Below, in pieces: positions 30,742 through 35,686 of a DNA stretch of 40,054 nucleotides. The DNA comes from Nitrospinota bacterium (GTDB lineage Bacteria; Nitrospirota; Nitrospiria; Nitrospirales; UBA8639), in assembly GCA_022572725.1 (NCBI GenBank), contig JACZVJ010000012.1, positions 1-40,054 of the forward strand, written 5' to 3'. Within the stretch, counting starts at the first letter, position 1, and each line of letters starts with the position of its first letter. Below the pieces are notes generated by a model that worked only from the letters and a program-made list of their open reading frames with translations, searched no databases and had not been told where the DNA came from. The translations under genes and the position numbers were made by a program.

Positions 30742-31743
30742 TCAGGCATGAGTATTGACTTACTTCCTTAAGAGCGAATGCACCCGCCGCTCCAAGGTCC
30801 CATTCCGTCTTGTGGCATAGCTGGCATACAGGCGACTGATCATCGAAGCATCACGATGCAGGCGCCGTCCGAGGAGCTTCACGGTCATCCCACTCCACTC
30901 TCGGGCGGTATACACCAGCAGCGCTCGGGGTTCCACCCACTCGCGCTGGCGCCCCATTCGCACCAATTGATCCACGGAGACCCCCGTGGCGTGCGCGACC
31001 GCGGGGAGTAAGCGGGAGAAGGGCACCCGCGGGCCCTTCACCGTGACGTCGTGTTTCGCGTCTGTCTTGCGCTGAATCTCCTCCAGAAACCGGTCGTCTC
31101 CCAAAAAGCGCTGATCCACGGTCTCGTAATACTGGGCTTGGTGCCCGAGGGAAAGCCCCTCTCGTAAGAACTGTTGATAGGCCTGTCGCGCGACCCTCAC
31201 CTGGCGGTGAAACTGCTCGAGTACCACTGCCGTGTCGACACGCACCGGCGTTTGCTCGCCGAGATAGGCTCGATGGCTACTCCAGGGATACCGCCACGGG
31301 TTCTGCGGCTGACGGAGCCGGGCCGGGTTCAAATGGAGGTACCGCACCAGTTCCACGAGATAGGCGTCCCGATCACACACGATGGCCTGGTACCGCCCTT
31401 GGAAGAGATGGCCCGTCTTCCGATAGCGCCGATTATAATACTGGGTATAGGTGAACTGGAGCCGCTGCATGGTCCGCGACAGCGGGACGTCGCCGCTTTC
31501 CACCAGCAGATGGAGGTGATTGGCCAGCAAGACAAAGGCATAGCAAGTGAGGTGATCTTGCTCCTGGTAGTGGCGCAACCGGTCAAGATAGGCGGCATAA
31601 TCGGCCTTGTCATGAAAGAGGGTCGCCCGGCGGTTGCCTCGGGCGATCACGTGATAGCAGGCGCCAGCGAATTCCACCCGCGGTTTCCGTGCCATGCACA
31701 CAGCCTAGTCCGGCTCGACACATAAGTCAATACTCATGCCTGA
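30742..31743. mobile_element. RAYT-type element bounded by perfect 21-bp inverted repeats
   Basis: TCAGGCATGAGTATTGACTT plus A at 30742-30762 is repeated exactly in reverse complement at 31723-31743. The transposase gene fills the space between, and its stop codon (30760-30762) is part of the left arm. To the right, three near-copies of a GACCCCATCTTTG unit follow in tandem (31742-31787). The layout matches a self-contained REP/RAYT transposon. Confidence 0.8.
30760..31695 (-). CDS. REP-associated tyrosine transposase (Y1_Tnp/RAYT) with DnaA-like C-terminus
   Basis: A 311-residue transposase. The HUH metal motif is HLHLL in FVLLANHLHLLVE. The catalytic tyrosine region is FTYTQYYNRRYRKTGHLFQGRY. 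The start MARKPRVEFAGACYHVIARGN is the family opening. The C-terminal ~90 residues (LVRMGRQREWVEPRALLVYTA, GMTVKLLGRRLHRDASMIS) resemble a DnaA-type helix-turn-helix, common in this subgroup. RAYTs cut single-stranded REP hairpins. The ATG at 31695 is preferred over the GTG two codons upstream. The gene appears intact. Confidence 0.93.
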   Translation of the reverse strand: MARKPRVEFAGACYHVIARGNRRATLFHDKADYAAYLDRLRHYQEQDHLTCYAFVLLANHLHLLVESGDVPLSRTMQRLQFTYTQYYNRRYRKTGHLFQGRYQAIVCDRDAYLVELVRYLHLNPARLRQPQNPWRYPWSSHRAYLGEQTPVRVDTAVVLEQFHRQVRVARQAYQQFLREGLSLGHQAQYYETVDQRFLGDDRFLEEIQRKTDAKHDVTVKGPRVPFSRLLPAVAHATGVSVDQLVRMGRQREWVEPRALLVYTAREWSGMTVKLLGRRLHRDASMISRLYASYATRRNGTLERRVHSLLRK

Positions 31744-33281: not shown

Positions 33282-33316
33282 TCTACCTCCCCTTGCCCCT
33301 CCTTACAAAGGAGGGG
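33282..33316. repeat. 35-bp direct repeat, copy 1
   Basis: Identical to 34232-34266. Contains the perfect hairpin CCCCTCCTTACAAAGGAGGGG (9-bp stem, 3-base loop). It lies just after the esterase stop. Confidence 0.85.
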
Positions 33317-33432
33317 AAATTAGGATGACTCACCAGGGTTAGCACAAGTGAAAGTTTTTTGATTTTTCATGTAGGAATCCCACTCTCGCTAAAGGAGCTT
33401 TGGTTGGATACCAACTTACAAAGGAGGAGATC

Positions 33433-33593
33433 TAACAGGCTGTTGAAAAAAGGCTGCGTGGGGGGATGCTCGAAAAGGGAGCGAGGAGCGGCTTGCTCCG
33501 CCTTCGAGGGGTCATAGGCTCCGTATTTAGGTCCGTCCTAATGGCGGGGGACCCTGGGTAAGCAGGGTGTTGGGGTTTTTCAATGCCCTGCTA
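33433..33593. repeat. MITE-like palindromic element
   Basis: The ends TAACAGGCTGTTGAAAAA (33433-33450) and TTTTTCAATGCCCTGCTA (33576-33593) are inverted repeats, matching at 14 of 18 positions. An internal GCGGCTTGCTCCGC hairpin adds structure. The ends resemble those of the element at 4708-4832, so the two probably belong to related families. Confidence 0.65.
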
Positions 33594-33868
33594 AGGCTGA
33601 CTTCACTCATGTGAAATACCATTTGAAAGATGTCTGAACCCCTCCTTAAAAATCTCGCACCTGGCGGTTGGAGTTCCTTTTGATATAAGCTTCGCCTGTT
33701 CTGCTTTGCCGGAATTCGTTCTTGCCCTCGATTTTACCAGCGGGGAGTTTCCCCTTCCCTAAAACGGATCTTCAGTTATCTGTGCAAATTGTTGTTTCTT
33801 GAATTCCCAATTTTCCTCCCCTTGGTAAGGGGAGGGTAGGTGGGGTAGAAGTGTCCAGGTGAATTTTC

Positions 33869-35686
33869 ATGCCTAGGGTCGTCCGGGGAATTCCACAGCA
33901 CCTGAAGCAAAAGAGACGGCTGAGATCAGAGGTGACCAAGGCTGAACTGTTGCTTTGGTCAAAGCTTCGGGGCTGCCAATTCCATTCTTTGAAATTTCGT
34001 CGGCAACATGGGATTGGATCCTATATCGTGGATTTTTATTGCCCGGACCGATTGTTGGTGATTGAAATCGATGGGGATATTCATGCACAAGGGAACCGAA
34101 AGAAAATGGATTGCCAAAGAGAGGCCTATTTGACCACTCTGGGTTTGAAGGCCATTCGTTACCCAAACGATGATGTGTTGAACAACCTTGATGGGGTCCT
34201 TCAAGATTTAGAAAACAAGATTTTTTCGGATTCTACCTCCCCTTGCCCCTCCTTACAAAGGAGGGGCAAAAGGAACCGACTCAAAAACATGTCGTTGAAT
34301 TCCTTCGTGACCCCAGAGGGCGGAGAAATGGGGCGGGCACAAGTGCTCCAGGCGCAGGCCTGCGGGCTTCTGCCGCACGTCGATATGAACCCTATTCTCC
34401 TGAAGCCGGAGGCGGACCAACGTTCTCAGATTATCGTTCAGGGAAAAATTTGGGGGACTCAAGACGCCAATGGGTACTTTGGGTGCAGGCCGGAGTTGTT
34501 TGGCTTTGTTCGAGACAGCTACGAGCGGTTAGCCAAAGACTACCAGGTTATTGTCATTGAGGGTGCGGGGAGTGCCGCGGAAGTGAATTTGCGGGACCGG
34601 GACTTGGTCAACTGGCCTGTGGTCGAGCTGGCGAATGCGGTGGTGGTCTTGGTTGCGGACATTGATCGGGGAGGGGTGTTTGCCCAGGTGATCGGGACGC
34701 TGGATCTTATCGACCCGAAAGAACGGCAAAGAGTTCTGGGAATCGTGGTGAACAAATTTCGTGGCGACCTGAATTTGTTTACTGATGGCGTGGCTTTTTT
34801 GGAGGAACGCACTGGGTTGCCGGTGCTCGGGGTACTGCCGTTTCTCCGTGACCTTCAATTGGATCAGGAGGACAGCGTTGGCGTGGATCGGTCTTCTCAG
34901 GCTCCGTTTGGTGATTCCACGGTGAATGTGGCGGTGGTGCTTTTGCCACACATGAGCAACTTTACCGATTTTAATGCTTTAGCGGCTGAAGAGGATGTGG
35001 TCTTGCGGTATGCGGCGACTCCGGCCGAGCTCAGTCGGGCGGATGTGGTTATCCTGCCAGGCAGTAAGACCACGATTGCCGATTTGGCGTATTTGAAGAA
35101 TGCTGGGTTCGGTGAGAGGTTGGTGGAATACGTGGATCAAGGGGGAGAACTGGTGGGGATCTGCGGTGGGTTTCAAATGTTGGGGCATGAAATTTCCGAC
35201 CCCCTCGGCGTGGAAATGGGGGGACTGGTTAAGGGTCTTGGTCTCTTAGAGGTGAAGACCGTTTTACATCGGGACAAAAAAACGGTTCAGGTTGTGGCCA
35301 CCCCGGCTCACTTGGGAAGTGCCGTTGGATTGCGCGTGAGAGGATACGAGATTCACATGGGGGAAACACGGCGATTGAAGGGGAAAGCCTGTTTCACAAT
35401 AATGCAAACATTTGGGCAGGAAAGGCCAGAGGAAGACCGAGAAGATGGGGCGTGGCGTGAGGACAAGTTGGTCTGGGGTACGTATATCCATGGCGTCTTT
35501 GACCAACCGGCCTTTCGACGGGCCTGGCTTAATCGGGTACGCGAACGGAAAGGGCTCCCCCAAATTGATCCTACGGTGTCCGAGGCGGTGACGGCCCGGC
35601 TTTGCTCCGCGCTGGACCGTTGGGCAGACCATGTCGAGCAACATGTACATATGGGAACAATTTTTTCAGCCCTAAATTTGAAATAG
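33869..35686 (+). CDS. DUF559 endonuclease-like domain fused to CobQ lacking its P-loop
   Basis: One 605-codon frame with two parts. Residues 1-~120 are a complete DUF559 domain (Vsr-like nuclease fold) with RRQHGIGSYIVDFYCPDRLLVIEIDGDIH; Asp55, Glu66 and Asp68 are candidate metal ligands. Residues ~121-139 are encoded by a 35-bp palindromic repeat. From residue 140 (KNMSLNSFVTPEGGEMGRAQ) the sequence is adenosylcobyric acid synthase (CobQ/CbiP), which amidates the corrin ring with glutamine and ATP; its glutaminase half has Cys432 (GICGGFQMLG) and His541 (YIHGVFDQP). Normal CobQ has about 40 more N-terminal residues with the ATP-binding P-loop and a KAQ just before NMSLNS; these are absent. 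An ATG at 34289 (residue 141) could start CobQ alone, with a weak ribosome site. Whether CobQ works without the loop is uncertain. Confidence 0.88.
   Translation: MPRVVRGIPQHLKQKRRLRSEVTKAELLLWSKLRGCQFHSLKFRRQHGIGSYIVDFYCPDRLLVIEIDGDIHAQGNRKKMDCQREAYLTTLGLKAIRYPNDDVLNNLDGVLQDLENKIFSDSTSPCPSLQRRGKRNRLKNMSLNSFVTPEGGEMGRAQVLQAQACGLLPHVDMNPILLKPEADQRSQIIVQGKIWGTQDANGYFGCRPELFGFVRDSYERLAKDYQVIVIEGAGSAAEVNLRDRDLVNWPVVELANAVVVLVADIDRGGVFAQVIGTLDLIDPKERQRVLGIVVNKFRGDLNLFTDGVAFLEERTGLPVLGVLPFLRDLQLDQEDSVGVDRSSQAPFGDSTVNVAVVLLPHMSNFTDFNALAAEEDVVLRYAATPAELSRADVVILPGSKTTIADLAYLKNAGFGERLVEYVDQGGELVGICGGFQMLGHEISDPLGVEMGGLVKGLGLLEVKTVLHRDKKTVQVVATPAHLGSAVGLRVRGYEIHMGETRRLKGKACFTIMQTFGQERPEEDREDGAWREDKLVWGTYIHGVFDQPAFRRAWLNRVRERKGLPQIDPTVSEAVTARLCSALDRWADHVEQHVHMGTIFSALNLK
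34232..34266. repeat. 35-bp direct repeat, copy 2, inside the fusion gene
   Basis: Identical to 33282-33316 and read in frame, giving the linker PCPSLQRRG between the DUF559 and CobQ parts. It marks the junction of the two domains. Confidence 0.85.

Follow-up and report, generated by a model that had tools for sequence, protein, structure and literature searches.

The window analysed here, by which we mean the whole stretch of 40,054 nt (GCA_022572725.1, contig JACZVJ010000012.1, positions 1-40,054, forward strand), carries on its plus strand a DUF559 coding part (Pfam PF04480) at 33869-34231, with the domain match at 33905-34216. DUF559 is a large family that is named only by number. The reading frame continues into CobQ, giving a single 605-aa ORF (33869-35686). 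The CobQ part (34275-35686, plus strand, start approximate) lacks its first ~37 residues, the P-loop region, and is fused in frame behind the DUF559 part and a repeat. A second full-length cobQ was not found in this assembly; the synthesis of cobyric acid may be disrupted, or the DUF559-CobQ fusion may be a tolerated accident.

A preliminary description of this DNA had pointed to two identical 35-bp direct repeats, each with a perfect 9-bp stem, as the brackets of a DUF559 unit. The repeats are real: positions 33282-33316 and 34232-34266 agree in all 35 bases (37/38 when extended to 38), and each holds the stem CCCCTCCTT-ACA-AAGGAGGGG. A search with a 61-base query built around the repeat found ~15-20 related places in the same genome, so this identity is not due to chance. 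The brackets, however, lie elsewhere. A third related hairpin at 33815-33847 stands in opposite orientation just before the DUF559 start codon, and together with 34234-34266 it forms an inverted pair that tightly encloses the gene. We rejected the direct repeats at 33282 and 34232 as unit ends because the inverted pair is the conserved arrangement; the copy at 33284-33316 (minus strand), after the esterase stop, is an extra solitary element of the right-end type and not an end of the DUF559 unit. A MITE-like stretch (33430-33700), noted in the earlier reading, lies between this solitary copy and the DUF559 cassette.

Inverted triplex motifs around the DUF559 gene

The repeats had been described as hairpins, and the hairpin is indeed present, but it is only part of the element. 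Behind each hairpin comes a stretch of purines, the tail, in mirror image to the purine arm (AAGGAGGGG-caa-GGGGAGGTA, read on the minus strand). Read from the purine side, every copy consists of a pyrimidine arm, a short loop, a purine arm, a linker usually of 3 nt and a purine tail; the tail repeats the purine arm in mirror order, and where the arm has A, the tail has A or T. To judge from its sequence, this pattern obeys the rule for an antiparallel purine-motif intrastrand triplex, and it places the window repeats in the known class of intrastrand triplex motifs (TM, or PIT), in which a hairpin with a purine arm is accompanied by a mirror purine strand that can form G.GC and A.AT or T.AT triplets. 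The window TMs fit this rule at 9/9 triplets. The left-end element (LE TM; 33815-33847, plus strand) reads CCTCCCCTT ggt AAGGGGAGG gta GGTGGGGTA, fits at 9/9 triplets and lies 22 bp before the DUF559 start codon. The right-end element (RE TM; 34234-34266, minus strand) reads CCCCTCCTT tgt AAGGAGGGG caa GGGGAGGTA on the minus strand, is inverted relative to LE and is translated through by the DUF559-CobQ ORF.

To avoid circularity, the mirror rule was tested on 148 hairpins near DUF559 genes that had been chosen without any condition on the tail. A hairpin's own arm fits its own tail better than other arms do in 21 of 22 arm types (Wilcoxon 7e-6). Among the good fits, A is faced by A in 95 cases, by T in 87 and by another base in 5, and G is faced by G in 623 cases and by another base in 14. 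If our reading is true, this co-variation of tail and arm over 22 arm types would represent a rare natural role for a triple-stranded DNA motif. Two other accounts of the conserved feature were considered. A plain G-quadruplex is insufficient, since the A positions of the arm, too, recur in mirror order in the tail, although a G-quadruplex is possible as an extra structure. Plain inverted repeat pairing, with the tail as Watson-Crick partner, does not fit a tail that is the mirror, and not a copy, of the arm.

TMs, also termed TMECO and earlier PIT elements (Hoyne et al., as cited in PMC4666352), are known repeats, of which E. coli MG1655 has 23 (Holder et al. 2015, PMC4666352). The repeats described here are the same: the TM families at DUF559 genes include the E. 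coli consensus, CCCTCNCCC-N3-6-GGGNGAGGG-N3-GGGNGAGGG. TMECO oligonucleotides form a triplex in vitro by CD and NMR, in vivo footprints have not shown stable triplexes in E. coli, and TM loci are unstable in this species (PMC4666352). Lists of triplex-forming repeats exist for hundreds of bacterial genomes, the repeats have been tied to instability of the genome, and inverted pairs of two types (A with B) have already been described (PMC4666352). Transposase or integrase remnants were never found around them, and that work reports neither a mobility gene nor a link to any gene (PMC4666352); here, in contrast, they bracket DUF559.

The genome of the window holds three DUF559 genes, and the TM family differs at each: CCTCCCC/CCCCTCC in the window, CCCCCC..GGGGGGATT on contig C84 and CCCTCTCCC on contig C210, where the gene runs off the contig and both TMs seen are downstream. 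Solitary TMs of all three families are present in the window. Besides the solitary copy after the esterase gene, the window carries one of the family that brackets the gene on C84 (10154-10183, plus strand; CCCCCTTT..AAAGGGGG..GGGGGATT) and one of the family at the gene on C210 (28664-28695, plus strand; CCTCTCCC..GGGAGAGG..GGTGAGGG).

Association of DUF559 genes with triplex motifs across bacterial phyla

We listed 80 DUF559 loci from genome contigs, chosen by protein sequence alone (two protein patterns), from Nitrospirota, Proteobacteria (several classes), Binatota, Rokubacteria, Desulfobacterota, Actinomycetota, Chloroflexi, Spirochaetes, Armatimonadetes and candidate phyla; 71 of the 80 lie far enough from contig ends to be scored. 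Controls were 550 other ORFs on the same contigs, called mechanically. A tight TM scan was fixed beforehand, and a generalised scan, which adds a longer second loop, was chosen after the first negatives had been seen. The tight scan finds TMs on both sides of 46/71 listed DUF559 loci and of 1/550 control ORFs. Its apparent negatives carry TMs with a long second loop that holds an inner hairpin, and the generalised scan recovers most of them: among the loci listed, 61 have a TM upstream, 68 downstream and 58 on both sides, against 1/550 controls with both (Fisher p = 1e-67), and all 71 have one on at least one side.

The arrangement is regular. In 44 of 49 pairs (tight scan, loci listed) the two TMs are inverted, '+' upstream and '-' downstream, and they usually lie within a few tens of bp of the ends of the DUF559 domain. 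TM density is 2.4/kb locally and 0.12/kb further out in the cross-phylum set listed. Among relatives, TMs flank 21/30 DUF559 genes on both sides versus 1/351 control ORFs, and the remaining negatives there are largely decayed orthologues fused to a deiminase gene. For ten further, plasmid-borne DUF559 genes the scan finds TMs near 8; the other two, from cyanobacteria, have shorter-armed TMs recognised by eye. The association of DUF559 genes with TMs across many bacterial phyla is thus a general arrangement, and the hairpin enrichment near DUF559 genes that the preliminary description had proposed as a check is borne out among the loci listed.

Some loci depart in detail from the window. At L131, L133, L135, L158 and L162 (Alphaproteobacteria and some others) a whole inner hairpin sits inside the second TM loop; for TMs of this kind, a comparison with the orphan CGTC palindromes without known enzyme (PMC3733652) suggests itself. 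In two Rickettsiales loci (L103, L104) the DUF559 unit apparently lies in frame within an ORF and the repeats have a structured second loop, and a link to the Rickettsia palindromic elements is possible. At the plasmid-borne genes L292, L293, L296 and L297 (cyanobacteria, Azospirillum, Deinococcus) the TMs point outward.

Also encoded in the window, 3 kb away (30760-31701), is a Y1 transposase of the REP type that has a DnaA C-terminal-like domain. We considered whether such a RAYT could be the hidden mobiliser and rejected it: this ORF and 29 Y1_Tnp genes of relatives have no flanking TM (0/30).

The position of the TMs invites a regulatory explanation, in which they would be regulatory or terminator elements of the DUF559 gene, kept by selection for autoregulation or control of toxicity, and their spread over the genome would have another cause. 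An LE TM in the 5' leader and an RE TM at the stop codon are in places suited to control of translation or termination, and DUF559 proteins are potentially genotoxic, the Caulobacter member VsrA driving the SOS response in cells without the methylase ScmA (PMC12907096). We nevertheless consider this explanation unlikely. TMs of the matching family are found by the dozen far from DUF559, and other compact genes on the same contigs are not bracketed by TMs (1/550). Often the reading frame continues through the RE TM into the next gene, and the RE TM therefore has no terminator role at such loci. Earlier work on PIT/TM elements, as quoted in PMC4666352, found neither promoter nor terminator activity.

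The TM type varies with the phylogeny of the gene. The more identical two DUF559 proteins are, the more alike are their TM arms (Mantel rho 0.37 and 0.26, values reached in 0/2000 permutations), and LE and RE arms are alike within a locus (45% identical versus 11% between loci). Common descent of the cassette would give the same Mantel signal, so these values indicate that gene and repeats travel together and are not proof of binding. TMs of one family, C, are present in 9/9 carriers of the family C DUF559 gene versus 14/50 other relatives (p = 6.5e-5). TMs therefore persist, or spread, without the gene, as the 14 of 50 congeners that have the TM family without the cognate gene indicate. Family B TMs occur in only 7/59 genomes, with the most, 23 copies, in the window's own genome. 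Copies per genome reach 88 for family C and 176 for family A, and a reversed-pattern control gives 0. Family C ends are GGGGTAGAG, with GTAG after the tail; in an unsystematic reading the other families are without GTAG.

TMs without DUF559 in some genomes, and a gene small enough to be captured between repeats, would also suit a passenger role, with replication slippage or another transposase spreading the TMs and DUF559 as frequent cargo between two of them. Such cargo would not be expected to belong to one family over the sampled phyla, with association at 71/71 loci listed, in a fixed orientation and with a cognate TM type, and no other ORF class among the 550 controls shows TM bracketing. 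We regard a passenger role as very improbable.

The DUF559 enzyme and its relatives

Twelve residues, including D55, E66, D68 and H72, are invariant across 57 DUF559 sequences. The AlphaFold model of the window DUF559 (pLDDT 87.8) matches the folds of 3hrl (Z 16.9), itself a DUF559 protein, of the homing endonuclease I-Bth0305I (Z 13.0) and of Vsr (Z 11). By sequence, the window protein matches I-Bth0305I (3r3p) with E 5.5e-5, and the weaker PDB matches below it are at chance level. Fold and conserved acidic active-site residues together identify DUF559 as a predicted PD-(D/E)XK, Vsr-like nuclease. The catalytic-domain fold is common to I-Bth0305I and Vsr (1vsr, 1cw0), with sequence similarity in addition to I-Bth0305I. 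Unlike these enzymes, the ~120-aa DUF559 protein has no intron, intein or DNA-binding extension, and its own gene is bracketed by repeats.

To our knowledge, ycjD is the only DUF559 gene in E. coli K-12. The window DUF559 is 37% identical to YcjD, which Kosinski et al. placed near Vsr (PMC1189080). A decayed TM lies at the stop codon of ycjD in E. coli K-12; ~170 bp further on, before fabI, follows an intact one, number 9 in the list of Holder et al. (PMC4666352). A cyanobacterial DUF559 gene has been filed under EDxHD (PMC9403480). The Caulobacter DUF559 protein VsrA (CCNA_02930), genotoxic in vivo in cells without ScmA, is interpreted as an enzyme of VSP repair linked to a cytosine methylase, and in the searched passages of that paper repeats do not come up (PMC12907096).

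Might DUF559 then serve DNA repair, as a mismatch (VSP-type) or structure-specific nuclease that tolerates TM sites or mends them, with selection keeping the enzyme near fragile DNA? The predicted Vsr-like fold, the VSP repair proposed for VsrA (PMC12907096) and the instability of TM loci in E. coli (PMC4666352) are consistent with this. True Vsr genes, however, gathered in the same way, have TMs in 0/30 cases, and for a repair enzyme free to diffuse, TMs next to its own gene are of no benefit. A repair role of this kind therefore appears to us most unlikely.

Presence and absence of cassettes and a REPtron-like reading

The flanks of six cassettes of one genus were searched in 14 genomes. The cassette of locus L084 is absent at the orthologous site in seven congeners and that of L072 in five; other sites in the genus show clean gaps, single TMs or gene-less TM pairs. 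Empty-site alleles, which the preliminary description had proposed looking for, thus exist among congeners. L084 has inverted ends with boundaries within a few bp, and no target-site duplication was seen, at a divergence too high to resolve one. For L084, parsimony over the compared alleles favours gain; in general, cassette loss and gain are hard to separate at 80-93% flank identity. Near-identical cassettes stand at unrelated sites in one genus (L057, L061, L064).

In three genera we also found gene-less LE..RE doublets that share the cassette's ends, mostly 63-70 nt apart. Their spacers do not align, even within a single genome. At L061, L079, L080, L083 and L200 the TM doublets are near-constant in length and their spacers unrelated. 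In E. coli, strains differ in whether they have a ~186-bp segment between fepB and entC (NC_000913.3 624320-624505), in the middle of which lies a TM pair; the segment is absent from both alternative alleles read. A query for this site gives a full match in about half of the 5,366 E. coli genomes with the site and <80% in the rest. At tauD-hemB, the TM-less alleles of E. coli resemble deletions.

Few plasmids (37/72,556 records) or phages (3/50,697) carry DUF559; it is therefore not a vigorous horizontal element, and we rejected the idea of plasmid or phage cargo. Several units lie within or against host genes. DUF559 with its repeats stands in frame inside HsdS, the type I specificity subunit, at L058, L063, L067 and L098-L100, in ORFs of 709-790 aa; these hosts belong to Nitrospirota and, judged by flanking sequence, also to Binatota. 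Elsewhere DUF559 forms the in-frame front part of a fusion with a PAD_porph gene of the agmatine-deiminase type, by Pfam at L003 and L060 and by eye in the relatives L059, L070, L073, L074, L077, L078 and L082, and many of these copies carry decayed TMs. At L086 (Pfam) and L080 it is fused in frame to a methylpurine-DNA glycosylase gene.

Units that sit in frame inside HsdS and at the fronts of host genes, leaving the frame unbroken, recall homing. DUF559 might cut TM-free alleles or related targets, the cassette or a lone TM would be copied by gene conversion, and the TMs would be target or border sequences and not transposon ends. Among characterised enzymes, the EDxHD homing endonuclease I-Bth0305I (3r3p) comes closest in both sequence and fold, and the cyanobacterial DUF559 gene has already been classed as EDxHD (PMC9403480). 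Homing-type action is the nearest rival to the reading we prefer; the main difference between the two lies in the DNA that is cut. Near-identical cassettes at unrelated sites of one genus (L057, L061, L064) are not accounted for by allelic homing alone, and the high-copy TMs at many sites also require movement to new places; we judge homing improbable.

The arrangement most resembles that of REPtrons and REPINs (PMC3116915, PMC8049555, PMC3733652, PMC8266576). In both, a single-copy chromosomal enzyme gene lies between inverted palindromic repeats of a dispersed family, many intergenic copies occur as singlets and as inverted doublets with diverse spacers, and enzyme and repeat types co-vary. 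REPINs pair two inverted REPs around a highly diverse spacer (PMC8049555, PMC3116915), as the TM doublets do in their own repeat type. The enzymes and repeats differ, however. The REPtron enzyme is an HUH Y1 tyrosine transposase (PF01797), whereas DUF559 (PF04480) is a predicted PD-(D/E)XK Vsr-like nuclease; because its enzyme is not an HUH transposase, the DUF559-TM system is not a REPtron by membership. REP repeats consist of a GTAG head and a plain palindrome, and TMs have the mirror purine tail of a putative triplex.

We therefore favour, with a probability of roughly 0.6, a reading in which DUF559 genes and TMs form one REPtron-like system, in which a Vsr/I-Bth0305I-like nuclease stands where REPtrons have the RAYT transposase. 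Inverted LE and RE TMs enclose the DUF559 gene, and other TMs of the same family are dispersed over the genome as singles and as gene-less LE-spacer-RE doublets. The nuclease would recognise its cognate TM, probably single-stranded and folded at replication forks, and nick or cut beside it; host repair would then lose the TM, doublet or whole cassette, or copy it to other sites. The preliminary description had spoken of a DUF559 cassette tied to the hairpins as a possibly undescribed mobile unit. The tie is strongly supported by the association described above; recognition and cleavage of the TM by DUF559, the single-stranded substrate, the copying step and hence movement of the cassette by DUF559 are what we infer from it. 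The further proposal that DUF559 is a new class of repeat-mobilising enzyme, a PD-(D/E)XK nuclease of Vsr/homing type by which intrastrand-triplex DNA ends are recognised and spread, we hold more tentatively, at a little under even odds.

In the open-access literature on DUF559, TMs or REPs we found no account of the DUF559-TM link, and no earlier description of DUF559 bracketing, cognate families, LE/RE asymmetry or doublets with unrelated spacers. The same literature yielded no described mobile system with a triplex-forming end and none with the DUF559 nuclease family in such a role. Were DUF559 such a repeat-mobilising enzyme, this would account in one step for where the TM/PIT repeats of bacteria come from and for what DUF559 does. 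If the favoured reading is true, the lifestyle of RAYTs and REPs would have evolved a second time, independently, with an unrelated enzyme. The DUF559-TM link would offer a joint explanation for both repeat and gene family, and one that is testable in E. coli K-12.
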